In this document: positions 41,516 through 61,406 of the stretch, piece by piece
Numbering within the stretch: position 1 is the stretch's first letter
Layout: each line of letters opens with the position of its first letter
Assembly (NCBI GenBank): GCA_902516465.1
Contig: CABXZD010000001.1
Span: 62,001-126,000, forward strand
Direction: 5' to 3'
Length of the DNA stretch: 64,000 nucleotides
Source of the DNA: an uncultured Pelagibacteraceae bacterium
Lineage (GTDB): Bacteria; Pseudomonadota; Alphaproteobacteria; Pelagibacterales; Pelagibacteraceae
The notes under the pieces: model-generated
Database searches by the model: none
Told to the model about the DNA's origin: nothing
What the model saw: only the letters and a program-made list of their open reading frames with translations
Translations under genes and position numbers: made by a program

Positions 41516-41584
41516 ATGAAATATATTATATTAGGTGCTGCATTAGCTTGGGCTATGTATATGGCTGACAAGTATATGTTTTAA
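41516..41584 (+). CDS. Possible 22-residue membrane microprotein
   Basis: An ATG five bases after livM opens a 22-codon frame encoding one hydrophobic helix (MKYIILGAALAWAMYMADKY) and a stop that abuts the terminator. It is in the same direction as livM and could be a small subunit or regulator of the importer. No Shine-Dalgarno is evident and a frame this short can occur by chance. Conservation in related genomes would be the deciding evidence. Confidence 0.4.
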   Translation: MKYIILGAALAWAMYMADKYMF

Positions 41585-41620
41585 AAAAAACCTCAGCGAA
41601 TTTCTTCGCTGAGGTTTCGT
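41584..41620 (-). terminator. Bidirectional terminator between convergent transport genes
   Basis: A 13-base-pair stem (41588-41600 with 41605-41617) closes a TTTC loop. On the minus strand eight U residues follow, a strong terminator for the binding-protein gene. On the plus strand the tail is shorter (TTTCG), so it may end the livM transcript less efficiently. Confidence 0.88.
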
Positions 41621-41631
41621 AATATTAAATA

Positions 41632-42813
41632 TTATCTTTGTTTTTTAGTTTTAAATTTTCCACCTTTAATTTCTTGCTCTAAAAAAGAACCTTCAGCTTC
41701 ACCGACTTTAGTAAAAGACACTCCAGTTGCTCCTTCGTAGTCAACTTTTTTGCCTTTAGCTAATAAATCCAAACCTTTTTTAAGTTCACCAGGATATATT
41801 TTTGTTCCCGGACCATTAGCGACATCCATTACATTTTTTGCGATAGATGCTCTATCTGCAGATCCACCTGCTTGCATAGCTAAGACAATTAAAGCCGCTG
41901 CATCGTATGATTCACCAGTGTAAGGTCCAGAGCTATCTATTCCCGCAGCTTTTGCTACTGAACCAAATACTCCAGCTCCTTTTCCTGTAGAGCCTGGCAT
42001 AGAACCAAATGATTTTTTAAGATCGTTGCCAAATGCATCTACTAATGATTGGCCAATCATACCATCAGATAAGATAAATTTATCAAATGCTCCTGAATCT
42101 AAAGAGGCTTGAATGATACCTTTTCCTCCTTGATCAAGATAACCTATTACAGCTACCGCATCTCCACCAGCCGAAGCCAGAGTTGCAACTTCCGAAGAGT
42201 AATCAGCTTTTCCATCCTCATGAGCAGTCACAGTAGTTACTTTGATACCGTGGGCCTCAACAGCTGCTTTATAAACATCTGCTAGACCTTTTCCATAGTC
42301 ATTATTTGTGTAAGTAATAGCTACACTTTTAACTTTTCTATCTTTTGTAATATCTGCTAAAATCTGACCACCTCTAGCGTCTGAAGGCGCGGTTCTAAAA
42401 AAATACCCTTTGTCATCAAGAGTTGTCAATCCTGGAGATGTAGCTGATGGTGAGATCATTGTTACACCATTTGGTACAGCAACATTTGAAGCTATCGCTC
42501 CAGTTACACCAGAACAATCTGCTCCCATGATTGCAGCAACTCCTTGAGAAATGACTCCTTCAGCTGCTGCGGTAGCTGCTGCCGAGTCAACACAAGTTGA
42601 GTCTGCTCTTATTACTGAAATAGTTTCACCACCTAGCAGTGATCCAGATTCGGATGCTTCTTTAAACGCAAGTTCAGCAGATGCAGCCATAGCCGGTGTA
42701 AGGGACTCAATAGGACCAGTAAACCCTAAAATAATTCCCATTTTAACTTCCGCAAAAATATTTGTTGTAAATGTAGAAACAAATATAAATGCAGCAATAA
42801 ATAGTTTTTTCAT
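41632..42813 (-). CDS. Branched-chain-type ABC substrate-binding protein (system 2)
   Basis: A 393-residue periplasmic binding protein with signal peptide (residues 1-21, IFA-EVK). The fold is shown by MGIILGFTGPIESLTPAMAASAELAFKEA, MGADCSGVTGAIASNVAVPNGVTMISPSATSPGL (the amino acid-binding loop of LivJ types) and VKSVAITYTNNDYGKGLADVYK. It faces the system 2 permease and ATPase genes across a bidirectional terminator and probably serves them, but it has its own promoter on the other strand. The ribosome-binding site is AGAGGAT. Confidence 0.93.
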   Translation of the reverse strand: MKKLFIAAFIFVSTFTTNIFAEVKMGIILGFTGPIESLTPAMAASAELAFKEASESGSLLGGETISVIRADSTCVDSAAATAAAEGVISQGVAAIMGADCSGVTGAIASNVAVPNGVTMISPSATSPGLTTLDDKGYFFRTAPSDARGGQILADITKDRKVKSVAITYTNNDYGKGLADVYKAAVEAHGIKVTTVTAHEDGKADYSSEVATLASAGGDAVAVIGYLDQGGKGIIQASLDSGAFDKFILSDGMIGQSLVDAFGNDLKKSFGSMPGSTGKGAGVFGSVAKAAGIDSSGPYTGESYDAAALIVLAMQAGGSADRASIAKNVMDVANGPGTKIYPGELKKGLDLLAKGKKVDYEGATGVSFTKVGEAEGSFLEQEIKGGKFKTKKQR

Positions 42814-48934: not shown

Positions 48935-50026
48935 ATGAAAGAAACATCTTTAATAAATCTTCATAAATCAAATGGAGCAAAGCTTGTTGAGTTTGCAGGT
49001 TATTATATGCCTATCCAATACCCAGACGGAATTCTCAAAGAGCATAGGTTTACTAGGACAAAAAGTGGTATTTTTGATGTTTCACATATGGGTCAATTAT
49101 TCATTTACGGCGACGATATGTTAACAAAAGATCTTGAAAAAATTTTTCCTATAGATCTACAAAATTTAAAGATAAATCAAAGCAAGTACTCATTTTTGAT
49201 GAATGAAAATGGTGGGATTTTCGACGATCTAATTATAACTAAGATTAGTAAAGGTTATATGATTATTTTGAATGCCGCTTGTAAAATTAATGATTATAAA
49301 ATTCTTAAAGAAAAATTAAATGACAGCTATAAATTAGAACTTAAAGAAAACCTTTCTCTAATTGCGATACAGGGACCAGGTGCCAAAAATATACTTGGAA
49401 AAATTATACCTGAAACTACTAATCTAAAATTTATGCATGGGGGAGATTTCAATTACAATAATTTTAATATTTATGTCACTAGATCTGGATATACTGGGGA
49501 AGATGGATTCGAGATTTCAATTCCAAATGAAATAGCAGAGGATTTTACAAAAATTTTGCTTAAAAATGGATCGAAATTAATTGGTTTAGGTGCAAGGGAT
49601 ACATTACGTTTAGAAGCCGGGCTTTGCTTATACGGAAATGACCTAGATACAGAAACTACTCCTATAGAGGCTAATCTAAAGTGGGCGATATCAAAAAAAA
49701 GAATTGATGACCAATATCCAGGATCAGAGGTAATTAAAAAACAATTTTTTTCTGGAGTAAAAAAATTAAGAGTTGGGATAAAGCCAGATATCAAAGTTAT
49801 TGCTCGAGCTAATACAAAAATTTATAATGATGATAATAAAGAAATTGGAAAAATCACAAGTGGCTCTTTTGGACCAAGTGTAGAATATCCAATATCTATG
49901 GGTTATATAGATAATAATTATTCGTCAATAGACACAAAAATATTTTTAGAAATTAGAGGGAAAAAGATTGCCGCAAATGTCTGCAAGTTACCTTTTTATC
50001 AAAAAAACTATTTAAAGGAGATTTAA
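48935..50026 (+). CDS. gcvT: Aminomethyltransferase, glycine cleavage T-protein
   Basis: GcvT takes the aminomethyl group from lipoylated H-protein and makes methylene-tetrahydrofolate and ammonia. The 363-residue protein has the T-protein start (LHKSNGAKLVEFAGYYMPIQYPDGILKEH) and GIFDVSHMGQ, the folate-contact region IQGPGAKN, SGYTGEDGFEISIP, and LRLEAGLCLYGNDLD. It is the first gene of gcvT-gcvH-gcvP, immediately behind the glycine riboswitch, so glycine levels should set its expression. Confidence 0.95.
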   Translation: MKETSLINLHKSNGAKLVEFAGYYMPIQYPDGILKEHRFTRTKSGIFDVSHMGQLFIYGDDMLTKDLEKIFPIDLQNLKINQSKYSFLMNENGGIFDDLIITKISKGYMIILNAACKINDYKILKEKLNDSYKLELKENLSLIAIQGPGAKNILGKIIPETTNLKFMHGGDFNYNNFNIYVTRSGYTGEDGFEISIPNEIAEDFTKILLKNGSKLIGLGARDTLRLEAGLCLYGNDLDTETTPIEANLKWAISKKRIDDQYPGSEVIKKQFFSGVKKLRVGIKPDIKVIARANTKIYNDDNKEIGKITSGSFGPSVEYPISMGYIDNNYSSIDTKIFLEIRGKKIAANVCKLPFYQKNYLKEI

Positions 50027-50407
50027 ATGTCTGAAGTAAAATTTTCAAAAGAACATGAGTGGATTAAACTTGAAGGAGAGGTTGCAACTATAGGAATAAC
50101 AAAGCATGCAACGGAAATGTTAGGTGACATTGTATTTGCTGAACTTCCCGAGAAAGGTTCAAAAATAGAAAAAGATGGTACAGCTGGGGTAGTTGAGTCA
50201 ACAAAAGCAGCAAGTGATGTTTATACTCCTCTAAGTGGGGAGGTTATTGATACTAATCAAAAAATTGTAGATGATCCTGCAAAAATAAATGAAGATCCAG
50301 AAGACACAGCATGGTTTTTTAAATTAAAATTAAAAGATAAATCTGAGATGGATACTTTAATGAATAAAGAAGAATACGATAAATTTGCAAAAGAAAGTAG
50401 TAGTTAA
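50027..50407 (+). CDS. gcvH: Glycine cleavage H-protein
   Basis: A 126-residue lipoyl carrier that shuttles the aminomethyl group between P-, T- and L-proteins. The lipoylation site is Lys60 in [20 protein letters not shown]. The start [21 protein letters not shown] is typical. The ATG follows the gcvT stop directly and its own stop abuts gcvP, so stoichiometric translation is likely. No change at the lipoylation site. Confidence 0.96.
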
Positions 50408-53266
50408 ATGTTAAAAAATGCTCAAAAAGATTTTATCAAAAGACACATAGGCCCCTCTGAAAAGGAGCAAGAAATAATGCTTAAAGAGCTTGGTTATAAA
50501 AGTTTGGATAATTTAATAGAAAATACTGTACCAGAAAAAATTCTATTGAAGGATAATTTAGATATTGGCGATCCGAATTCTGAGTATGAAGCCTTGAGAA
50601 AACTTAAAAATATTTCTAAGAAAAATAAAATTTTTTCAAGTTTTATTGGTATGGGTTATTATGGAACATATACTCCTTACGTAATCCTTAGAAATATATT
50701 AGAAAATCCAGGGTGGTATACTTCCTATACGCCATATCAACCCGAGGTAGCTCAGGGCAGATTAGAAATGTTGTTAAATTTTCAACAAATGATTATTGAT
50801 TTTACTGGGATGGACATTGCAAATGCCTCTCTCTTAGATGAGGCTACTGCAGCTGCTGAAGCTATGGGATTGAGTTTTAGACTTTCAAAAACTGAGACAA
50901 AAAAAGTTTTTGTTTCAAAAAACTGTCATCCTCAAACTATTGAAGTTATTAAAACTAGGGCTGAACCTTTAGGAATAGAAATAATAGTTGGTGATGAAGA
51001 TAAAGACATTAATGAAAATATTATTTGTGGAATACTTCAATATCCTGGGACTTTGGGCGATATAAAAGATCCAAGCGAGGCAATAAGTAAAATTCATAAA
51101 AATAATGGTAAAGCAGTTTTAGCTTGTGATTTACTTGCTTTAGCTAAACTTAAAACACCTGCGGAATTAGGTGCTGATATAGCTATTGGTAGTTCACAGA
51201 GATTTGGAATTCCAATGGGATATGGAGGTCCTCATGCAGCTTTTTTTGCTACAAAAGATGAATTTAAAAGATCTATGCCAGGAAGAATAGTGGGTGTTTC
51301 AGTTGATAGACATGGTAAGAAAGCCTTTAGATTAGCCCTGCAGACTAGAGAACAACATATCAGAAGAGATAAAGCTACAAGTAATATTTGCACAGCTCAA
51401 GCTTTGCTTGCAATAGTCTCGGCAGCTTACGCAGTTTATCATGGACCGACAGGTATCAAAAAAATTGCAGAAACTGTTTCTCAACTAACAAAAAATTTTG
51501 CAGACAAATTAAAGCAATCAGGATATGAATTATATTCTGATAAATTTTTTGATACAGTCACAGTAAAAACTTTAGATAAAACAGATAAAATTTATAAAAA
51601 TGCGCTAGATCAAGGTGTTAATATAAGGAAAGTTAGTTCTGAATTATTGGCAGTATCTTTTGATGAACGAAAAAACCTTTATAGAGCAAATCAACTTTTA
51701 AAAATATTCAATTGCTCAGAAACAATCAAAGAGACAATGAATGAAAGTTTATCAAACTTACCAAAAAAATTATTACGAACTTCTACTTATTTAGATCATC
51801 CAGTATTTAATAGCTATCATTCTGAGACAGAAATGCTCAGATATTTAAAAAAACTAGAGGACTCAGACATAGCTCTTAATAGAACAATGATAGCTCTTGG
51901 TTCTTGCACCATGAAATTAAATGCAGTTTCAGAAATGACACCTATTACATGGAAAGAGTTTTCACAACCACATCCATTTTCTCCAGTTGAGCAGATGGAT
52001 GGTTATAGAGAACTTTTCACTGATTTAAAGAATTGGTTAAGATCAATTACAGGTTTTTCTGGCGTTTCACTTCAGCCTAACGCTGGTGCTCAAGGAGAAT
52101 TTACAGGATTGATGGTAATAAGAAAATATCATGAAAAAAATGACGAGCTTAATCGAAATATTTGTTTAATTCCAAGTTCTGCTCACGGTACAAATCCAGC
52201 GAGTGCTCAAATGGTGGGTATGAAAGTTGTTGTTGTTAAATGTGATGAAAAAGGAAATGTTGATTATGAAGATTTAAAAAAGAAAGCCGAGGAACATTCA
52301 GAAAATTTGGCAGCGTTAATGGTAACATATCCTTCAACTCATGGTGTTTTTGAGGAAAAAATAATAGATATTTGTGACTTAATTCACAAACACGGTGGAC
52401 AGGTATATATGGATGGGGCAAACTTAAATGCTTTGGTAGGAGTAGCAAAACCTGGAAATTTTGGTCCAGATGTATGTCATATTAATTTACACAAAACTTT
52501 TTGTATTCCACATGGAGGTGGAGGTCCGGGTATGGGTCCAATAGCGTGTAAAAAACATTTAGAAATATTTTTACCCAAGCATTCTGTAATCAAGGATTGT
52601 GGACCAGCAACAGGAATTGGTGCGGTATCAGCTGCCCCATGGGGAAGTTCAAGTATTTTGTCTATTTCTTGGATGTATATTAAAATGATGGGATCAGAAG
52701 GTTTGAAAAAAGCGTCTCAAGTTGCAATCTTGAATGCTAATTACCTAGCTCATAAATTAAGAGATACATTTCCAATTTTGTATAAAGGAAAAAATGGTAA
52801 CGTTGCACATGAATGTATAATAGATATTAGAAAAATAAAAAAAGATATTGGCATTACCGAGGAAGATATTGCAAAAAGACTTATTGATTTTGGTTATCAT
52901 GCACCGACAATGTCATGGCCAGTTGCTGGTACAATGATGATCGAACCCACCGAAAGTGAAAGTTTTAATGAAATTAATAGATTTTGCTCAGCTCTCAAAA
53001 AGATCAGACAAGAAATTGATAAAGTTCAGTCTGGTGACTACGATAAAGTTGATAATCCACTTAAAAATGCGCCACATACACACGTTGAATTAAGTTCTAA
53101 CAAATGGGAACATATGTATGAAAGGGAAGAAGCTGCTTATCCTACTGAAGCTCTGAAAACAATAAAGTATTGGCCTCCAGTTGGAAGAGTAGACAACGTC
53201 TATGGAGATAAAAATTTATTTTGTACTTGTCCGTCCATGGATGAATATGAGGACTCAGCAGCATAA
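50408..53266 (+). CDS. gcvP: Glycine dehydrogenase (decarboxylating), P-protein
   Basis: The 952-residue homodimeric (fused) form of the P-protein, which decarboxylates glycine with pyridoxal phosphate. The N-terminal half starts FIKRHIGPSEKEQEIM and has SLLDEATAAAEAM; the C-terminal half has the PLP-binding Lys696 in NLHKTFCIPHGGGGPGMGP. ALGSCTMKLNAVSEM links the halves. Full length, no frameshift. It ends 12 bases before the next operon-like group and has no terminator-like hairpin, so read-through is possible. Confidence 0.96.
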   Translation: MLKNAQKDFIKRHIGPSEKEQEIMLKELGYKSLDNLIENTVPEKILLKDNLDIGDPNSEYEALRKLKNISKKNKIFSSFIGMGYYGTYTPYVILRNILENPGWYTSYTPYQPEVAQGRLEMLLNFQQMIIDFTGMDIANASLLDEATAAAEAMGLSFRLSKTETKKVFVSKNCHPQTIEVIKTRAEPLGIEIIVGDEDKDINENIICGILQYPGTLGDIKDPSEAISKIHKNNGKAVLACDLLALAKLKTPAELGADIAIGSSQRFGIPMGYGGPHAAFFATKDEFKRSMPGRIVGVSVDRHGKKAFRLALQTREQHIRRDKATSNICTAQALLAIVSAAYAVYHGPTGIKKIAETVSQLTKNFADKLKQSGYELYSDKFFDTVTVKTLDKTDKIYKNALDQGVNIRKVSSELLAVSFDERKNLYRANQLLKIFNCSETIKETMNESLSNLPKKLLRTSTYLDHPVFNSYHSETEMLRYLKKLEDSDIALNRTMIALGSCTMKLNAVSEMTPITWKEFSQPHPFSPVEQMDGYRELFTDLKNWLRSITGFSGVSLQPNAGAQGEFTGLMVIRKYHEKNDELNRNICLIPSSAHGTNPASAQMVGMKVVVVKCDEKGNVDYEDLKKKAEEHSENLAALMVTYPSTHGVFEEKIIDICDLIHKHGGQVYMDGANLNALVGVAKPGNFGPDVCHINLHKTFCIPHGGGGPGMGPIACKKHLEIFLPKHSVIKDCGPATGIGAVSAAPWGSSSILSISWMYIKMMGSEGLKKASQVAILNANYLAHKLRDTFPILYKGKNGNVAHECIIDIRKIKKDIGITEEDIAKRLIDFGYHAPTMSWPVAGTMMIEPTESESFNEINRFCSALKKIRQEIDKVQSGDYDKVDNPLKNAPHTHVELSSNKWEHMYEREEAAYPTEALKTIKYWPPVGRVDNVYGDKNLFCTCPSMDEYEDSAA

Positions 53267-53278
53267 AGTTTTAATTTA

Positions 53279-54517
53279 ATGAAAATAGCTGTAGTTGGTT
53301 CAGGCATTTCTGGTTTAAGTGCTGCACATTATTTATCAAAAAAATATCATGTGGATCTTTTTGAAAAAGAAGATCATTTTGGAGGACACTCTCACACAAT
53401 AGATCTTAACTTTGGATCAAAAAAAATATCAGTAGATATCGGCTTTATTGTTTTTAATTTTAAAACTTATCCAAATTTGATTAATTTTTTTAAAGAAAAT
53501 AAAATCAAAATAGAAAAAAGTAATATGTCTTTTTCAGTTTCAGTCAAAAATACAAATTTTGAATATTGTGGAAAAGGTTTGAATGGTATTTTTTCAAATA
53601 AATCAAATTTATTTAACCTCAAATTCTTAAAAATGTTTTTTGATATTATTAGTTTTTACAAAAAATGTGATGACCTAAAAAACTTTAATGAAGGAATAAC
53701 TCTAGGAGATTATTTATCTAAAAATAGACTATCAAAAGAATTTATAAATTATCATTTAATACCTATGGTTTCAGCTATTTGGTCAATGCCACCATACGAG
53801 GCTAGTAAAATGCCTTTAAAATTCTTCCTGAAATTTTTTCAAAATCATGGTTTATTTAAACTGAAAGACAGACCACAATGGTACACTGTTACCAATAGAA
53901 GCAGAACCTATGTTCAAAAAATTATTTCAAGTTTGAGTGGTGAATATTTTAAAAATTATGCTGTAAAAAAAATTGTAAGTAATAATTCAGGAATAGATTT
54001 ATATTATGGTGGAGATAGTGAATTTTTTAATTACGATAAAGTTGTATTGGCAACACATGCTGATGAAGCCCTTTCAATTATAGAAAATCCATCAAAAGAT
54101 GAAAAAAAAATATTATCAAATTTTAAATACAAAGAAAATTTCGCTTTCATCCACACCGATGAAAAAGTTATGCCTAAAAATAAGAATGCTTGGTGTTCAT
54201 GGAATTCCTCGATGGATAAAAATTTTGTTGAAAAAAACTCAATAACTTATTGGCTAAATTTATTACAAAATTTAAAATGTGATCAAAATATATTTTTGAC
54301 TTTGAACCCTTACTTTGAAATAGATAAATCAAAAATATTAAAAAAAACAAAATACACTCATCCTTATTTTGATCAATCTGCATTAGACTACCAAAGTGAC
54401 CTTAAAAGTTTACAAAATAAAAGAAATATTCTTTTTTGTGGTAGTTATTTTGGTTATGGATTTCATGAGGATGGAATAAAATCATCTCTTGAAATGTTAA
54501 AAAATTTTAATGAATAG
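53279..54517 (+). CDS. FAD-dependent amine-oxidase-fold oxidoreductase (COG2907 type)
   Basis: A 412-residue flavoprotein with the N-terminal FAD motif MKIAVVGSGISGLSAAHYLSKKY and the GGHSHTID block, then FIVFNFKTYPNLINFF and SAIWSMPPYEASKMP, matching the COG2907 family that accompanies Cfa-like enzymes. In Rhodobacter sphaeroides a flavin protein of this kind (UfaD) desaturates methylated fatty acids on the route to furan fatty acids. It overlaps the DUF1365 gene by 8 bases. Assignment to that function is inference from neighbours, and the family contains other activities. Confidence 0.8.
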   Translation: MKIAVVGSGISGLSAAHYLSKKYHVDLFEKEDHFGGHSHTIDLNFGSKKISVDIGFIVFNFKTYPNLINFFKENKIKIEKSNMSFSVSVKNTNFEYCGKGLNGIFSNKSNLFNLKFLKMFFDIISFYKKCDDLKNFNEGITLGDYLSKNRLSKEFINYHLIPMVSAIWSMPPYEASKMPLKFFLKFFQNHGLFKLKDRPQWYTVTNRSRTYVQKIISSLSGEYFKNYAVKKIVSNNSGIDLYYGGDSEFFNYDKVVLATHADEALSIIENPSKDEKKILSNFKYKENFAFIHTDEKVMPKNKNAWCSWNSSMDKNFVEKNSITYWLNLLQNLKCDQNIFLTLNPYFEIDKSKILKKTKYTHPYFDQSALDYQSDLKSLQNKRNILFCGSYFGYGFHEDGIKSSLEMLKNFNE

Positions 54518-55271
54518 CTCAATTTATAATGGAACTGTAATTCACAAAAGATTTAAACCTAAAAGTCATTTTTTTAAATATAGTGTATTTACTTTTTTAA
54601 TAGATTTATCTGAATTAAATTATCTAAATAAAAAAATTAAATTTTTTTCGTACAATCGTTTCAATCTTTTAAGTTTTTATGAAAAAGATCACGGTGATAG
54701 GGATGGCTCATCATTAGTTCAATGGGTTAAAAAGAATTTAGACGATAACAATATTAATTCAGAAAGTGTGAAGATTAGATTGTTATGTTATCCTAGAATT
54801 TTTGGTTATGTATTTAATCCACTAAGTGTATTTTATATTTACGATATTAATGAAAAATTAATTTGTATTTTATATGAGGTAAAAAATACTTTTGGAGAAC
54901 AACACACATATATTTTTAAGGTTCATGGAGATAAAAACCTTTATCAACATAATTGTTTGAAAAAATTTCATGTGTCTCCTTTTATTGAAATGGATTGTGA
55001 ATATTTTTTTAGGATTTTAAAACCTGGAGAAAAAATTTCTGTTATTATCAATCAATATCAAACAAATGAAAAAATATTATATGCATCTCAAGATGGTAAA
55101 AGAGTTGAATTCAATTCGAAAGAATTAATTAAATCCTACATAAAACACCCATTAATGACATTTAAAATAATTTCAGCGATACATTTTGAAGCGTTCAAAT
55201 TGTGGATAAAAGGAATTAAGTATGTAAAAAAAAAATTAAAAATTAAAAATAATATTACTTTTGAAAATTAA
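54510..55271 (+). CDS. DUF1365 protein of the lipid-modification cluster
   Basis: A 253-residue protein with the DUF1365 pattern: IYNGTVIHKRFKPKSHFFKYSVFTFLIDLSEL at the start, IRLLCYPRIFGYVFNPLSVFYIYD in the middle, and FHVSPFIEMDCEYFFRI. Almost always found between the COG2907 oxidoreductase and a Cfa-like gene, as here. The biochemical function is unknown. It overlaps the upstream gene by 8 bases and its stop shares a base with the start of the Cfa-like gene. Confidence 0.85.
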   Translation: MNSSIYNGTVIHKRFKPKSHFFKYSVFTFLIDLSELNYLNKKIKFFSYNRFNLLSFYEKDHGDRDGSSLVQWVKKNLDDNNINSESVKIRLLCYPRIFGYVFNPLSVFYIYDINEKLICILYEVKNTFGEQHTYIFKVHGDKNLYQHNCLKKFHVSPFIEMDCEYFFRILKPGEKISVIINQYQTNEKILYASQDGKRVEFNSKELIKSYIKHPLMTFKIISAIHFEAFKLWIKGIKYVKKKLKIKNNITFEN

Positions 55272-56449
55272 TGGGTTTATTTAAAATTTCAGACAAAATT
55301 GTATTTAATGCTTTAAAAAATATAAGATTTGGTTATTTAGAGATCACCAATCATAATGGTGATGTACATAAATTTGGAGACTCAAACGAGATATTAAAAG
55401 CTTATCTTGAGATAAAAAAGCCTAATTTTACTTTTAATATAATAAAAGGAGGAAGTGTTGGGCTGGCTGAGTCTTATATGAGGAATGAATTTGAGACTAA
55501 AAATTTGTCAAATTTAATAGAATTAACTGCAAGAAATATAAAACAAGTTCATAAATTTTCAGGTCTTCTTGATATGCCATTATTTAATTTTTTCAAAAAT
55601 ATTTTTATTAAAAATACAAAAAGTAGAAGTAAAGCAAATATAGCAAAACATTACGACCTAGGTAATGAATTTTTCTCTCTCTGGCTAGATAAGACGTTGA
55701 CATATTCGAGCGCAATTTTTGATGAAAAAAATAAAGACTTATCAGATGCACAAAATAATAAATATCAAAAATTGATTAACTTAATCAAACCAAATATTGG
55801 TGATAAAGTTTTAGAGATAGGATGTGGCTGGGGAGGTTTTGCTGAATATTTGGGTAAAAAATATGATGTTAAACTTGATTGTATTACAATTTCTAAAAAA
55901 CAATTTGAATATGCAAAAAAAAGAATTCATAAATGCGGCTTAAGTGAAAAAGTTAATATTGAAATTAAAGATTATAGAGACTTAAAAAATAAATATAATT
56001 CAATAGCTTCTATAGAAATGATTGAAGCAGTAGGTCAAAATTATTTAGAGAGTTATTTTCAAACAATTAAAAATAACTTATCACAAAATGGAAAAGCAGC
56101 TATTCAAGCTATTACAATTGACGATACTTTATTTAATAGATACAAAAATAAAGAAGATTTTATTCAAAAATATATTTTCCCAGGAGGGTTTCTACCTAAT
56201 AAAAATAGTATAAATAAGTATGTTTCTAATAATGGGTTGACTATAAAATCTTATGAATCTTATGCTGATCATTATTCAAATACTTTGGCTATATGGAGAG
56301 ACGAATTTAATAGAAAATGGGATCAAATTAAAAATCAAGGCTTTGACTTAACATTTAAAAGAATGTGGGAATTTTACTTGTGTTATTGTGAGGCTGGTTT
56401 TAAATCAAAAAATATTGATTTGATACAATTTTCGATACAAAACAAATAG
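55271..56449 (+). CDS. Cfa-like SAM-dependent fatty-acid methyltransferase
   Basis: A 392-residue relative of cyclopropane fatty acid synthase that moves a methyl group from SAM to a lipid double bond. It has HYDLGNEFFSLWLDKTLTYSS, the SAM motif VLEIGCGWGGFAEYLG (residues 180-195) and KRMWEFYLCYCEAGF. By motif alignment with E. coli Cfa, Glu239 (here Glu252) and Tyr317 (Tyr335) are kept, but Cys139 is Ser147 and His266 is Gln279. Those two residues help bind bicarbonate in cyclopropane synthases. A methyltransferase making a methyl-branched product (as UfaM does) is therefore as likely as cyclopropane synthesis. Confidence 0.85.
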   Translation: MGLFKISDKIVFNALKNIRFGYLEITNHNGDVHKFGDSNEILKAYLEIKKPNFTFNIIKGGSVGLAESYMRNEFETKNLSNLIELTARNIKQVHKFSGLLDMPLFNFFKNIFIKNTKSRSKANIAKHYDLGNEFFSLWLDKTLTYSSAIFDEKNKDLSDAQNNKYQKLINLIKPNIGDKVLEIGCGWGGFAEYLGKKYDVKLDCITISKKQFEYAKKRIHKCGLSEKVNIEIKDYRDLKNKYNSIASIEMIEAVGQNYLESYFQTIKNNLSQNGKAAIQAITIDDTLFNRYKNKEDFIQKYIFPGGFLPNKNSINKYVSNNGLTIKSYESYADHYSNTLAIWRDEFNRKWDQIKNQGFDLTFKRMWEFYLCYCEAGFKSKNIDLIQFSIQNK

Positions 56450-56461
56450 AAAAATATAAAT

Positions 56462-57010
56462 ATGACGAACACAAAATTTTTTAAATCAATTTTATTGATA
56501 ATTTCTTTAATCTTAATTACAAGTTGTTCAAAAAATAGTTCTATGAAACCAGAAGATTTTAAAGATAAAAAACCAAGATTAATTATTGAGGAATACTTGT
56601 CAGGAAATGTTAAGGCTTGGGGTGTTCTTCAAAATAGATCTGGAAAAGTTACAAGACAATTTTCAGCTGATCTTAATGGAAAATGGGATGGTAAAGAATT
56701 AATACTTGATGAAAAATTTAATTGGGATGATGGTGAAGTTCAAAATCGACAATGGAAAATAACAAAAATTGATGAAAATAATTATGAAGGCACAGCTGGT
56801 GATGTTGTAGGTAAAGCAAAAGGTTTTTCTTATGGCCCAGCTTTTAAATTTGAATATATTTTGTTAGTGCCCGTCAAAGGTAAAGAAATGAAAATTACAT
56901 TTGATGACTGGATTTTTAAACAAGACGATCGTGTAGCAATTAATAGAGCAACAATGACTAAGTTTGGCTTTAAAGTTGCTGAATTAACGGTGGTATTTGT
57001 TAAAGACTAG
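56462..57010 (+). CDS. DUF3833 lipoprotein
   Basis: A 182-residue protein with a lipoprotein signal ending LITSCS (Cys22). The mature part has LIIEEYLSGNVKAWGVLQNRSGKVTRQFSADLNGKW and LVPVKGKEMKITFDDWIFKQDDRVAINRATMTKFGFKVAELTVVF, matching the DUF3833 family. In other bacteria it accompanies DUF1365/Cfa clusters. It probably binds a lipid at the membrane surface, but no activity is established. It ends in a CTAG shared with the convergent SDR gene's stop. Confidence 0.85.
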   Translation: MTNTKFFKSILLIISLILITSCSKNSSMKPEDFKDKKPRLIIEEYLSGNVKAWGVLQNRSGKVTRQFSADLNGKWDGKELILDEKFNWDDGEVQNRQWKITKIDENNYEGTAGDVVGKAKGFSYGPAFKFEYILLVPVKGKEMKITFDDWIFKQDDRVAINRATMTKFGFKVAELTVVFVKD

Positions 57011-57768
57011 TTCTTCTTTTGATGTTTAGTCATTTTACCAACTAAGCCAAAATAAATTTTACTTGGTAAAAAACTTAATATTTTAAGTATTAAAGTTAAA
57101 GATTTCGGGAAATGAATTTCAAAAACATTTTTATTGATTAAACCATCATAAATTTTCTCAGCTGCATATTCAGTTGTTTTTAAAAAGGGCATTTTAAAAT
57201 CATTTTTATCTGTCATTGGAGTTTTTATAAAACCAGGACTTACTAAGCAAATTCGTACATTTGATCTTTTAAAATCAAAATATAAACTTTCAGCTAAATT
57301 ATTTAATGCTGATTTTGATGGCCCATACCCAGTTGAATTAGGTAATCCTCTATATCCTGCGATAGAAGAGACTATTGTGATAGTACCGTTTTTTTTATTT
57401 TTGAAATATTCTTCAACAGCTTTAATACTATTTAGTGTTCCAAAAAAATTTATTCTAAAAACATCTTCTATTTGTTCAACATCTATATCTTTTTCTTTTT
57501 TTGGATTCCATGTACCGGTTGAAAAGAAACAAATGTCAATATTTTCAAATTTTTTTTTGATTTCTTCAAAAACTTCTTTGCATTTGGATTTATTTGTAAC
57601 ATCAAGTGGGAAATCATAAATATTTTCGTACTCGTCTGAGATCTCTTTAAGAAGATTTTCTCTTCTAGCTGAAATGGCAACATTCCAACCTTGATTAGCA
57701 AATTTAATTGCTAATGCTTTGCCAATACCTGTACTTCCACCAGTTATCCAAATAGTTTTTTTATTCAT
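57007..57768 (-). CDS. Short-chain dehydrogenase/reductase (SDR)
   Basis: A 253-residue SDR. The cofactor motif TGGSTGIGKALAIKFANQGW is at residues 10-29, and the catalytic Tyr and Lys are in STGYGPSKSALNN. The C-terminal segment has a hydrophobic tail (about residues 220-250). Such SDRs recur in clusters with DUF1365 and Cfa-like genes. The gene converges on the DUF3833 gene with a four-base overlap in which the two stop codons share CTAG. It also starts divergently from tspO, nine bases apart. Confidence 0.88.
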   Translation of the reverse strand: MNKKTIWITGGSTGIGKALAIKFANQGWNVAISARRENLLKEISDEYENIYDFPLDVTNKSKCKEVFEEIKKKFENIDICFFSTGTWNPKKEKDIDVEQIEDVFRINFFGTLNSIKAVEEYFKNKKNGTITIVSSIAGYRGLPNSTGYGPSKSALNNLAESLYFDFKRSNVRICLVSPGFIKTPMTDKNDFKMPFLKTTEYAAEKIYDGLINKNVFEIHFPKSLTLILKILSFLPSKIYFGLVGKMTKHQKKN

Positions 57769-57777
57769 TATATTGTG

Positions 57778-58260
57778 ATGTATAATACTTATATGTTAAA
57801 AAATAAATTTCTATCATTTGTTATTTTCTTTGTAATTACATATTCAGCATCGTTTATTGGAGGTTTTGTCACATTAAGTTTCAAAGAACCTTGGTATTCA
57901 GAGCTTATTAAGTCAAATTATAATCCTCCTGACTGGGTTTTTGCCCCTGTGTGGACAATACTTTACTTAATGATGACCTTGGCTATCTGGTTTTTCTGGC
58001 ATAGTAAAAATAGAGATATAAAGACAATTTATGTTTATTTAATTCATATAGCTCTTAATACAACTTGGAGCATTGTTTTTTTTGGTTTACACCAAATTTT
58101 ATTAGCGCTTCTTGTACTTTTATTATTAATTTTTTTTATAATTTATCTTATTTTAAGATACAAGCGTGTCAATTTAGTGAGTTATTATCTTATGATTCCC
58201 TATTTACTTTGGACTATCTATGCACTATTTCTGAATTTTAACTTATTAATTTTAAACTAA
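57778..58260 (+). CDS. tspO: TspO/MBR-family tryptophan-rich sensory protein
   Basis: A five-helix membrane protein of about 160 residues. It has the family motifs SFIGGFVTLSFKEPWYSELIKSNYNPPDWVFAPVWTILYLMMTLAIW and the late LNTTWSIVFFGL. TspO binds porphyrins and takes part in oxygen and light stress responses. A GTG at 57775 and an ATG at 57793 are alternative starts; 57778 is reported, but 57793 (MLKNKF) is equally plausible. It diverges from the SDR gene with a nine-base gap. In other bacteria TspO homologs occur close to lipid-modification clusters that respond to singlet oxygen. Confidence 0.88.
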   Translation: MYNTYMLKNKFLSFVIFFVITYSASFIGGFVTLSFKEPWYSELIKSNYNPPDWVFAPVWTILYLMMTLAIWFFWHSKNRDIKTIYVYLIHIALNTTWSIVFFGLHQILLALLVLLLLIFFIIYLILRYKRVNLVSYYLMIPYLLWTIYALFLNFNLLILN

Positions 58261-59366: not shown

Positions 59367-60821
59367 TTAAGTTCCACAAAAAGTTTGATATTTTTCATCT
59401 AAGTTAGATGGAATTTGATAATTGAGGATACCATTTTGTTGAGTATATGGACTTTTTAAAATTTTTAATAGATGAGTAAGAGGTTTCATATTATCTTTTT
59501 TAGCTGCTTCAAGGGCCTCTTCTACTTTGTGATTTCTCGGAATGACAAGAGGATTAAAAGTTTTCATAAGTTTTTTATATTTATCAGGAGAATTGTTATT
59601 AATTTTTAGTCTTATCTTCCATCTTTTTTTCCAACTTTGAAAATCTTCATTATCATAAATTTTATCATCTTTTATTTTCTCATCCATTAAATGACAAAAA
59701 GTATTTGTGTAATCTACTTTATTTTGATGCATCCAAGTAAGTAAATCAACTATTAAGAATTTATCTTTATCATCTGAACCTTGTAATCCTAGTTTCTTTC
59801 TCATCATGTTCATCCATCTTTCTTCATATTTTTTTTCAAATGTATTAATGATTTCCTTTGCTCTTTTAATTGCTTGATCTTTATCTTTGTGAATTAATGG
59901 TATTAGACATTCTGCAAATCGTGAAAGGTTCCACTTTGTTATAGCAGGTTGGTTACAGTATGCGTACCTACCTGTTTTATCAATTGAGCTAAAAACAGTT
60001 TCTGGATCATATGTGTCCATAAATGCACATGGTCCATAATCAATTGTATCTCCAGAAATTGTCATGTTATCAGTATTCATGACACCATGAATAAAACCAA
60101 CGCGCATCCAATTGACCACAAGATTTATTTGTTTATCTATAAGAATGTTCAAAAGATCTAAAGCTTTTTTTTTTGAATTTACAAGTTCTGGATAGTGCCG
60201 TTTTATAGCATAATCTAAAAAAATTTCTAACTCATCATCTTTATTTCTTGCAGCAACATATTGAAAAGTTCCAACTCTAATATGACTTGAGGCAACTCTT
60301 GTCAAGATAGCACCTTGTAATGGGGCATCTCGTATTATTGTTTCACCTGTTTTAGCTACTGCTAAACTTCTTGTTGAGGGAACATTAAGATAATACATTG
60401 CTTCACTAATAATATATTCTCTCAACATTGGACCTAGTGCAGCTCTACCATCACCATTTCTAGAAAATGCAGTTTTACCTGATCCTTTAAATTGAATATC
60501 GTATCTTTTATTATCATTCGTTATATGTTCACCTATTAAGACTGCTCTTCCATCCCCTAACATTGTGAAATGTCCAAATTGGTGACCTGCATAGGCTTGA
60601 GCAATTGTATTACTTCCCTCTGGAAGAATATTTCCAGTAAATAAATCTGATAATTTATCTTTATTAATTTTGGTAAAGTCTAGATTTAATTCTTTGCATA
60701 AATCCTCATTTAATAAAACTAATTCTGGGTTTTTTACAGCTACAGGTTTAATGTGCTCTTTAAATGCATCTGATAGTCTTGAATAAGAGTTATCGAAATT
60801 CCAATTTATATTATTTCTCAT
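59367..60821 (-). CDS. selO: SelO/YdiU-family protein AMP-transferase
   Basis: SelO is a pseudokinase that attaches AMP to proteins, including glutaredoxin in E. coli, and affects redox balance. The 484-residue protein has AQAYAGHQFGHFTMLGDGRAVLIGE near the start, QFKGSGKTAFSRNGDGRAALGPMLREYIISEAMYYL (the nucleotide-binding block), GVMNTDNMTISGDTIDYGPCAFMD (metal-binding DYG), and a C-terminal Cys-Gly-Thr, where the cysteine stands in for the selenocysteine of animal SelO. It is followed on the same strand by nothing related; the upstream gene is msrA, 6 bases away. Confidence 0.92.
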   Translation of the reverse strand: MRNNINWNFDNSYSRLSDAFKEHIKPVAVKNPELVLLNEDLCKELNLDFTKINKDKLSDLFTGNILPEGSNTIAQAYAGHQFGHFTMLGDGRAVLIGEHITNDNKRYDIQFKGSGKTAFSRNGDGRAALGPMLREYIISEAMYYLNVPSTRSLAVAKTGETIIRDAPLQGAILTRVASSHIRVGTFQYVAARNKDDELEIFLDYAIKRHYPELVNSKKKALDLLNILIDKQINLVVNWMRVGFIHGVMNTDNMTISGDTIDYGPCAFMDTYDPETVFSSIDKTGRYAYCNQPAITKWNLSRFAECLIPLIHKDKDQAIKRAKEIINTFEKKYEERWMNMMRKKLGLQGSDDKDKFLIVDLLTWMHQNKVDYTNTFCHLMDEKIKDDKIYDNEDFQSWKKRWKIRLKINNNSPDKYKKLMKTFNPLVIPRNHKVEEALEAAKKDNMKPLTHLLKILKSPYTQQNGILNYQIPSNLDEKYQTFCGT

Positions 60822-60827
60822 AAAGAT

Positions 60828-61406
60828 TTATTTACTCCAAATCCTTTTCAACAATTCTTCTCTTCCACAAGCTTTTTTATATTTAAGATATCGCTCAAAC
60901 TTGATTTTATAAAAATCTTGATGGTACTCTTCTGCTTTATAAAATTTTTCAAATTTTCTAATATAAGTCACTACTTTCTTATTAAATTTAATTTCTAATT
61001 CTTTAATATCTTTTTCTATTGCAGTTTTTTCATCATTGTTTGTATAAAATGCGACTGATCTATAACTATATCCTTTGTCACAAAATTGACCATAAGCATC
61101 AAATGGATCTATATTAACCCAAAAATTTTTTAATAATTCTTCATACGAAATAATTTTTTTATCATAGATTATTTCTACAACCTCAAAATGACCAGTTTTT
61201 CCATATGTTACTTCTTTGTAAGTTGGGTTTTCAGTTATACCTCCTGAATATCCAGAAATAACCTCATTTACACCTCTCAATTTTTCAAACGACTCTTCTA
61301 CACACCAAAAACATCCCCCAGCAAAATATGCTTTATCCTTCTGTACAGAATGTGAAAGATTTGTATTAATTAATAAAATAAAAATTATAACTAAATATTT
61401 CATCAA
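60828..61406 (-). CDS. msrA: Exported peptide-methionine (S)-S-oxide reductase
   Basis: MsrA repairs S-methionine sulfoxide. The 192-residue protein has a signal peptide (about residues 1-20, SHS-VQK), so it is likely periplasmic. The active site GGCFWC has the catalytic Cys32, and later blocks read VISGYSGGITENPTYKEVTYGKTGHFEVVEI and KFYKAEEYHQDFY. It is followed by selO after 6 bases, forming a redox-repair pair. The cytoplasmic MsrB in this window (27.4 kb) handles the other stereoisomer. Confidence 0.94.
   Translation of the reverse strand: MMKYLVIIFILLINTNLSHSVQKDKAYFAGGCFWCVEESFEKLRGVNEVISGYSGGITENPTYKEVTYGKTGHFEVVEIIYDKKIISYEELLKNFWVNIDPFDAYGQFCDKGYSYRSVAFYTNNDEKTAIEKDIKELEIKFNKKVVTYIRKFEKFYKAEEYHQDFYKIKFERYLKYKKACGREELLKRIWSK

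Follow-up and report, generated by a model that had tools for sequence, protein, structure and literature searches.

A putative ufaD-ufaO-ufaM operon for furan fatty acids behind the glycine cleavage genes of a SAR11 genome

We analyzed a window of 64,000 nucleotides from an uncultured Pelagibacteraceae bacterium of the SAR11 order (NCBI GenBank assembly GCA_902516465.1, contig CABXZD010000001.1, positions 62,001 to 126,000 of the forward strand; coordinates below are those of the window). Three plus-strand genes at 53279-56449 very probably form a ufaD-ufaO-ufaM operon for the synthesis of furan fatty acids. They encode a ufaD-type flavoprotein desaturase of the amine-oxidase type (53279..54517, 412 amino acids; NAD_binding_8, 1.2e-15; Amino_oxidase, 6.3e-15), a ufaO-type DUF1365 protein expected to be the furan-forming oxygenase (54510..55271, 253 amino acids; PF07103, 1e-77), and a ufaM-type fatty-acyl methylase of the CMAS/Cfa family, predicted to depend on S-adenosylmethionine (SAM) (55271..56449, 392 amino acids; PF02353, 3.9e-83). 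All three families of the UfaD-UfaO-UfaM pathway, an FAD/NAD-domain desaturase, a DUF1365 protein, and a CMAS-family methylase, are thus present. The assignment is based on homology, orthology of the methylase, gene order, residues, co-loss, and genomic context, and it places a known pathway in a new and unexpected host with unusual wiring. An earlier, sequence-only reading of this DNA had proposed a Cfa-like methylase acting with a flavin desaturase; both enzymes are there, but that reading overlooked the DUF1365 protein as UfaO, the oxygen-inserting step. Because the DUF1365 gene corresponds to ufaO, the furan-forming step itself would be encoded. The source genome comprises 1.04 Mb in 20 contigs and is 87% complete; the genomes of the order are small and A+T-rich. 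Together with a rhodopsin-family gene and the glycine riboswitch described below, these traits fit the label SAR11, which was taken over from the sequence-only reading.

The pathway has been described in Rhodobacter (Cereibacter) sphaeroides and Rhodopseudomonas palustris, where UfaM methylates cis-vaccenoyl phospholipid chains, UfaD, which has a predicted NAD-FAD domain and is similar to phytoene desaturases, acts next as a desaturase, and the DUF1365 protein UfaO is required for furan ring formation with oxygen from O2 (PMC7380195). In R. palustris the genes for UfaD, UfaO, and UfaM are consecutive (RPA2571, RPA2570, and RPA2569), giving the same three families in the same D-O-M order as in the window (PMC7380195); that system also has a second methylase, FufM. 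Rhodopseudomonas pseudopalustris likewise has adjacent D-O-M genes, and its methylase carries the motif SIEMIEAVG with the Gln discussed below. The window proteins are 36% (D; 7e-101), 41% (O; 1e-73), and 41% (M) identical to their R. pseudopalustris counterparts. The two methylases were each other's best match, at the level of 5.8e-102 in one direction, where the window genome's own Cfa followed at 4.5e-55, and at 1.5e-99 in the reverse direction, where the only other match reached 6.9e-13. This reciprocal best hit makes the predicted UfaM-type orthology well supported.

Other known systems differ in arrangement. In R. sphaeroides, ufaD and ufaO are adjacent and the pathway is linked to singlet oxygen (PMC7380195, PMC6852236, PMC3818230), but ufaM (RSP2144) is encoded away from them and the RpoE regulon includes RSP1091-1087, whereas in the window ufaM directly follows ufaO and the genome yielded no ChrR. 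The three operon genes after R. sphaeroides ufaO (RSP1089-1087) are dispensable for the furan lipid (PMC7380195). Halomonas sp. YLGW01, from another class, has consecutive ufaD, ufaO, and ufaM genes and, like the window genome, a separate true cfa; of the three ufa genes, only ufaM was expressed in that study, which in Escherichia coli yielded 11-methyloctadec-12-enoate (PMC12089945). Arabidopsis proteins similar to UfaM/UfaD and to UfaO have also been described (PMC10940516).

We then compared the window methylase with E. coli Cfa (reference sequence from NC_000913), with which it has the CMAS family and fold in common (predicted local distance difference test [pLDDT] of the window model, 91.1). 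E. coli Cys139, Glu239, His266, Ile268, and Tyr317 align with Ser147, Glu252, Gln279, Ile281, and Tyr335 of the window protein. Bicarbonate in E. coli Cfa is held by Glu239, His266, and Tyr317 (PMC11387697), so that this ligand set is incomplete in the window methylase, with Gln279 at the His position and Glu252 and Tyr335 kept. The surrounding motif reads GMFEHVG in E. coli Cfa and EMIEAVG in the window, the His of EHVG being replaced by Ala. A second CMAS protein, encoded on another contig of the same genome, reads C-E-H-I-Y at the five sites, the same as E. coli Cfa, in contrast to S-E-Q-I-Y in the window protein. That genome gave two strong CMAS matches, a weaker one over the cut-off (6.5e-11), and four below it.

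In an alignment of 85 CMAS rows, left after the removal of four sequences shorter than 330 residues and of 11 exact duplicates (the latter count obtained by subtraction), 60 rows have Gln and 25 have His at the site of E. coli His266. Glu, Ile, and Tyr are kept in all 60 Gln rows, and the site of Cys139 is occupied by Ser in 47, Ala in 9, Cys in 3, and Gly in 1. The motif EM[F/I/L/M]EAVG occurs in 59/60; the exception, L137 (EALERLG), was retained and falls on the UfaM side. The His rows read C-E-H-I-Y with a single outlier (L146, S-E-H-F-Y, on a long branch). In the tree of these 85 proteins, a branch supported at 95 (Shimodaira-Hasegawa-like approximate likelihood ratio test) separates all 60 Gln rows, the window protein among them, from E. 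coli Cfa and eight SAR11 Cfa copies; RSP2144, RPA2569, Halomonas UfaM, and TmsB/BfaB were left out of the tree. The sequence-only reading had named beforehand, as the outcome that would speak against it, a clustering with cyclopropane fatty acid (CFA) synthases sharing Ser and Gln; the protein grouped apart from them, and none of the 25 His-side rows has Gln. That reading had also picked out both substitutions, Cys139 to Ser147 and His266 to Gln279, with Glu and Tyr kept. The residues were read correctly, but among the aligned proteins only the His-to-Gln change is diagnostic of the UfaM side (60/60), and Cys139 to Ser is not. A further set of 81 rows (the window and 80 named loci, the best 80 of at least 598 candidates in order of similarity to a single UfaM-type protein) has Gln throughout, 79 reading S-E-Q-I-Y and two A-E-Q-I-Y; because it was found with patterns including part of EAVG, it is independent of the Gln but not of that motif. 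Six Gln rows of the 85 (L175, L177, L181, L187, L188, and L194) represent CMAS genes fetched on their own, away from D and O, and R. sphaeroides ufaM likewise stands apart.

By analogy with the tested bacteria, UfaM would use SAM to methylate an unsaturated phospholipid acyl chain at its double bond; in those organisms the chain is cis-vaccenoyl (18:1). With Gln in place of the bicarbonate-holding His, the intermediate would avoid ring closure and instead lose a proton from the neighboring chain carbon, leaving a methyl-branched trans olefin; Gln279 may accordingly be the cause of the product choice. UfaD would desaturate this olefin to a methylated conjugated diene, and UfaO would close the furan ring with oxygen taken from O2. 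If substrate and product are the same in SAR11, the expected products are 11Me-12t-18:1, the methylated diene, and 9M5-FuFA. We hold production of furan lipids by SAR11 cells to be probable, with less confidence than the gene assignment.

DUF1365 was detected in 218 of 297 genomes of the order (217 over the cut-off), in 125 of the 150 near-complete ones, and in 10 of 11 genera. We fetched 23 of these SAR11-order loci, chosen to cover ten genera, and found the order D-O-M, with ufaO overlapping ufaM, in every one. All three genes also occur together, inside the 8-13 kb fetched, in 30/37 other alphaproteobacterial loci picked for DUF1365. Conversely, a search with the window methylase of 26 of the 79 DUF1365-negative genomes (20 members of the window's genus and six of genus g8) returned only 31-38% identical matches in 22 and none in three, so that a UfaM-type methylase is absent from 25/26. 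The remaining genome, G082, has one 85% match of the UfaM type, which starts on base 1 of a contig. Hence, DUF1365 and the UfaM-type methylase occur and are lost together; for the loss, the evidence covers these two genes. Among plasmid records, 97 have DUF1365 matches, all below 60% identity, and no relatives were found among viral contigs. Together, phylogeny, active-site residues, gene order, the reciprocal best hit, and co-loss bear out the proposal of the sequence-only reading that the cluster serves methylated or furan fatty acids rather than cyclopropanes.

Immediately 5' of ufaD, on the same strand, lie a glycine riboswitch aptamer (RF00504, 48761..48851; 69.3 bits against a gathering threshold of 32, E = 8.6e-13), gcvT for the glycine cleavage T protein (48935..50026; NCBIfam NF010093, 461.7 bits, cut-off 459), gcvH (50027..50407), and gcvP for glycine decarboxylase (50408..53266; TIGR00461, 1439.6 bits, cut-off 859.2). 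The gcvH gene was named by operon position and homology as the open reading frame between gcvT and gcvP, and matching frames occupy this place in 8/8 related loci. The gap between gcvP and ufaD is 12 bases in the window and 6-14 bases in 10/10 loci of genera g1, g5, g6, and g7 (the window's genus and three others), and the riboswitch is present in all eight upstream stretches fetched from the gcv-linked genera. A glycine riboswitch before gcvT has been published for Candidatus Pelagibacter ubique (PMC2704228). The spacing suggests that ufaDOM is co-transcribed with gcvTHP behind the riboswitch; glycine control of ufaDOM is a plausible prediction, again less secure than the gene assignment. In R. 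pseudopalustris no gcvP match was found in the fetched 17 kb, and a cysteine synthase-like gene follows the cluster (9302-10408 of L217); a gene of this kind also lies 3' of ufaM in several further alphaproteobacterial loci, those of SAR11 included (e.g., L102, 7883-8881). In a second family of the order, three of five loci have sarcosine oxidase genes about 380-400 bases 5' of ufaD on the same strand (L116, 828-4401; L117, 97-3670; L118, 788-4400; soxA by TIGR01372, the other gene soxG-like), and one of the two other stretches ends inside ufaD. The sox genes are a second link of the ufa genes to folate one-carbon enzymes.

A link to light is visible in the sister genera g2, g3, and g4, where a photolyase gene abuts or overlaps ufaD in 8/8 loci (L102-L109; one identified by Pfam, PF03441, 5.3e-87, and the others by likeness to it, that of L109 being split over two frames), whereas the window's genus shows the glycine-linked setting. 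Over all fetched DUF1365 loci, 34/86 have a photolyase within the flank, in many directly 5' of ufaD and in several Rhodobacteraceae directly 5' of ufaM (e.g., L253 and L266). Further photolyase-adjoining loci include L121, L123, L129, and L199. The usual regulators, ChrR, LitR, and photolyase, had been called absent from this DNA in the sequence-only reading; this stands for ChrR (TIGR02451), which none of 61 genomes of the window's genus and three second-family genera (g2 to g7 excluded) encodes over the cut-off, with 10 weak matches, and which was not found in the window genome, which is 87% complete. That reading could not cover the photolyase gene 5' of the cluster in the three sister genera, and it had missed the riboswitch-gcvTHP context. 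The genomes searched thus gave no sign of the RpoE-ChrR control of the singlet-oxygen response seen in R. sphaeroides, which the pathway does not require. Our proposal, tentative and a little short of an even chance, is that a light-stress lipid pathway, which stands beside photolyase in sister genera, has come to lie in the glycine-riboswitch gcvTHP operon of four SAR11 genera, the best-sampled one among them, and that a glycine-sensing RNA sets the furan fatty acid share of the membrane, tying the one-carbon supply for SAM-dependent methylation to photo-oxidative protection in highly abundant marine cells.

The most serious competitor, unlikely in our view but by no means negligible, is that furan acids are made for a purpose other than defense against singlet oxygen and serve membrane fluidity or one-carbon overflow in connection with glycine supply. 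The riboswitch-gcvTHP setting in four genera and the sarcosine oxidase genes are in keeping with this, as are the missing ChrR and the lack of a positive rhodopsin or photolyase association. Of the listed near-complete genomes without rhodopsin, 10/11 have DUF1365; a rhodopsin-family gene is nearly universal in the order (264/297 genomes, the window genome included), so that this co-occurrence test has little power. A strong photolyase match (PF03441, E <1e-60) is no commoner in DUF1365-positive (13/17) than in DUF1365-negative (12/13) members of the window's genus searched. In the window genome, which is 87% complete, photolyase-family matches are partial only (contig C2, 2728-3102 and 7400-7672), unlike those in 25/29 other genus members searched. 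Against this alternative, the photolyase genes beside ufaD and near DUF1365 point to light, and singlet oxygen promotes furan acid breakdown in R. sphaeroides (PMC6852236). By analogy, protection of SAR11 membranes against singlet oxygen may thus be a function of the pathway.

We also considered whether the pathway might stop short of the furan, yielding only methyl-branched or diene chains or a saturated, tuberculostearate-like product, with a SAR11 DUF1365 protein that no longer forms the ring. DUF1365 is a neighbor in mycobacterial branched-acid clusters. UfaM without its partners yields a branched olefin (PMC12089945), and 5 of the 27 DUF1365 positions that ≥90% of 38 non-SAR11 rows share vary in SAR11, among them H132 (kept in 21/24 rows). 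The other 22, including H12, R14, P95, F102, K151, S156-F158, Y165, and H225, are unchanged in 24/24 SAR11 rows. In comparisons of the window with four relatives, nonsynonymous divergence (dN 0.11-0.26) is well below synonymous divergence (dS 1.0-2.1, near saturation), and the cluster genes are under purifying selection. Given also the breadth of DUF1365 in the order and its constant overlap with ufaM, we regard this alternative as improbable and continue to favor a furan-forming UfaO. The UfaO model is confident (pLDDT, 92.8) and rich in antiparallel strands. It matched no solved structure at a Foldseek E value of ≤0.001, nitrobindin coming closest at 1.2e-3, and a sequence search of solved structures found no relative up to an E value of 1. 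VIA-align placed a designed membrane barrel first (Z 6.9), followed by nitrobindin and fatty-acid-binding-like barrels (Z 6.8; 130-135 residues at 4.1-4.4 Å); these scores lie within the range that the tool calls a common arrangement, so we claim no cofactor. The weak barrel resemblance of the model is a possible clue to how UfaO might handle oxygen and lipid.

Finally, a cyclopropane synthase with unrelated neighbors is the least credible alternative, and very improbable: the PF02353 family, the best solved relatives (CFA synthases), the kept Glu252 and Tyr335, and the mention of cyclopropanation genes in SAR11 strain HTCC1062 (PMC11813361) speak for it, but the Gln and Ala substitutions, the tree placement, and the separate C-E-H-I-Y copy in the same genome led us to reject ordinary Cfa identity. 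The scores below the cut-off of the NCBIfam CFA models (266.7 of 600 and 261.6 of 400) add weak evidence, as these models were run on the window protein and not on the true Cfa copy.

Besides the variable DUF1365 positions and the absent rhodopsin and photolyase associations, several points weigh against the furan operon and its proposed role. The identities to the tested genus are only 36-41% and were obtained via R. pseudopalustris, not with the tested RSP2144 or RPA2569. The E. coli host in which Halomonas UfaM was expressed has its own Cfa (PMC12089945). The CMAS tree came from a quick, short search without bootstrap and contains the long-branch outlier. DUF1365 is absent from 79/297 genomes of the order, 25 of them among the 150 near-complete ones, and the pathway is thus dispensable. 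We found no report of furan fatty acids in SAR11 in the literature searched, which left out most subscription papers: for SAR11 or Pelagibacter together with furan fatty acid, only a dinoflagellate volatile study appeared among the matches listed; the term marine furan acids was absent from the matches listed, a search on the mechanism was likewise empty, and no literature was found on HTCC1062 SAR11_0668-0672 (numbers presumed from the expected position after gcvP).

The ufa genes belong to a set of six open reading frames within 53279-58260, all present as the sequence-only reading had described them and each with a Pfam family match. Downstream of ufaM lie genes for a DUF3833 protein with a lipoprotein-like start (56462..57010, plus strand; PF12915, 6.2e-61), an SDR family oxidoreductase on the opposite strand (57007..57768, minus; PF00106, 7.7e-44), and a TspO/MBR family protein (57775..58260, plus; PF03073, 2.2e-37). 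The first four genes are tightly packed, with overlaps of 8 bases (D/O) and 1 base (O/M) and a gap of 12 bases between ufaM and the DUF3833 gene. The DUF3833 gene is 3' of ufaM in 10/10 gcv-linked SAR11 loci, and the SDR and TspO genes are both found in the same eight, the other two stretches ending at most 1.4 kb past DUF3833. The three had been counted as part of the cluster set; they are present as neighbors rather than established parts of the pathway. Farther on, the minus strand encodes a SelO-like protein (59367-60821) and a secreted-looking protein with a GCFWC motif like that of methionine sulfoxide reductase A (60828-61406); both are possibly tied to oxidative stress. Elsewhere in the window, a match to Brucella small RNA 120 at 41542-41635 is below threshold (31 bits, gathering 114) and is probably only a hairpin.

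A single residue distinguishes the two kinds of CMAS gene present in these genomes. At E <1e-40, the UfaM-type methylase is the sole CMAS match in five genomes of g2-g4, so that cyclopropanes are not to be predicted from it; it is accompanied by another match in g1 (three genomes), g6 (one), g7 (one), and one of two g5 genomes, and in the second family of the order one of four genomes has a second match. Few kinds of cell in the sea are as numerous as SAR11. If these bacteria make furan fatty acids, then lipids described from certain plants, fish, and microbes would also have a large source among marine bacteria, and streamlined cells that yielded no ChrR would possess a photo-oxidative defense. 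The placement in the glycine operon gives a concrete, testable hypothesis on regulation.

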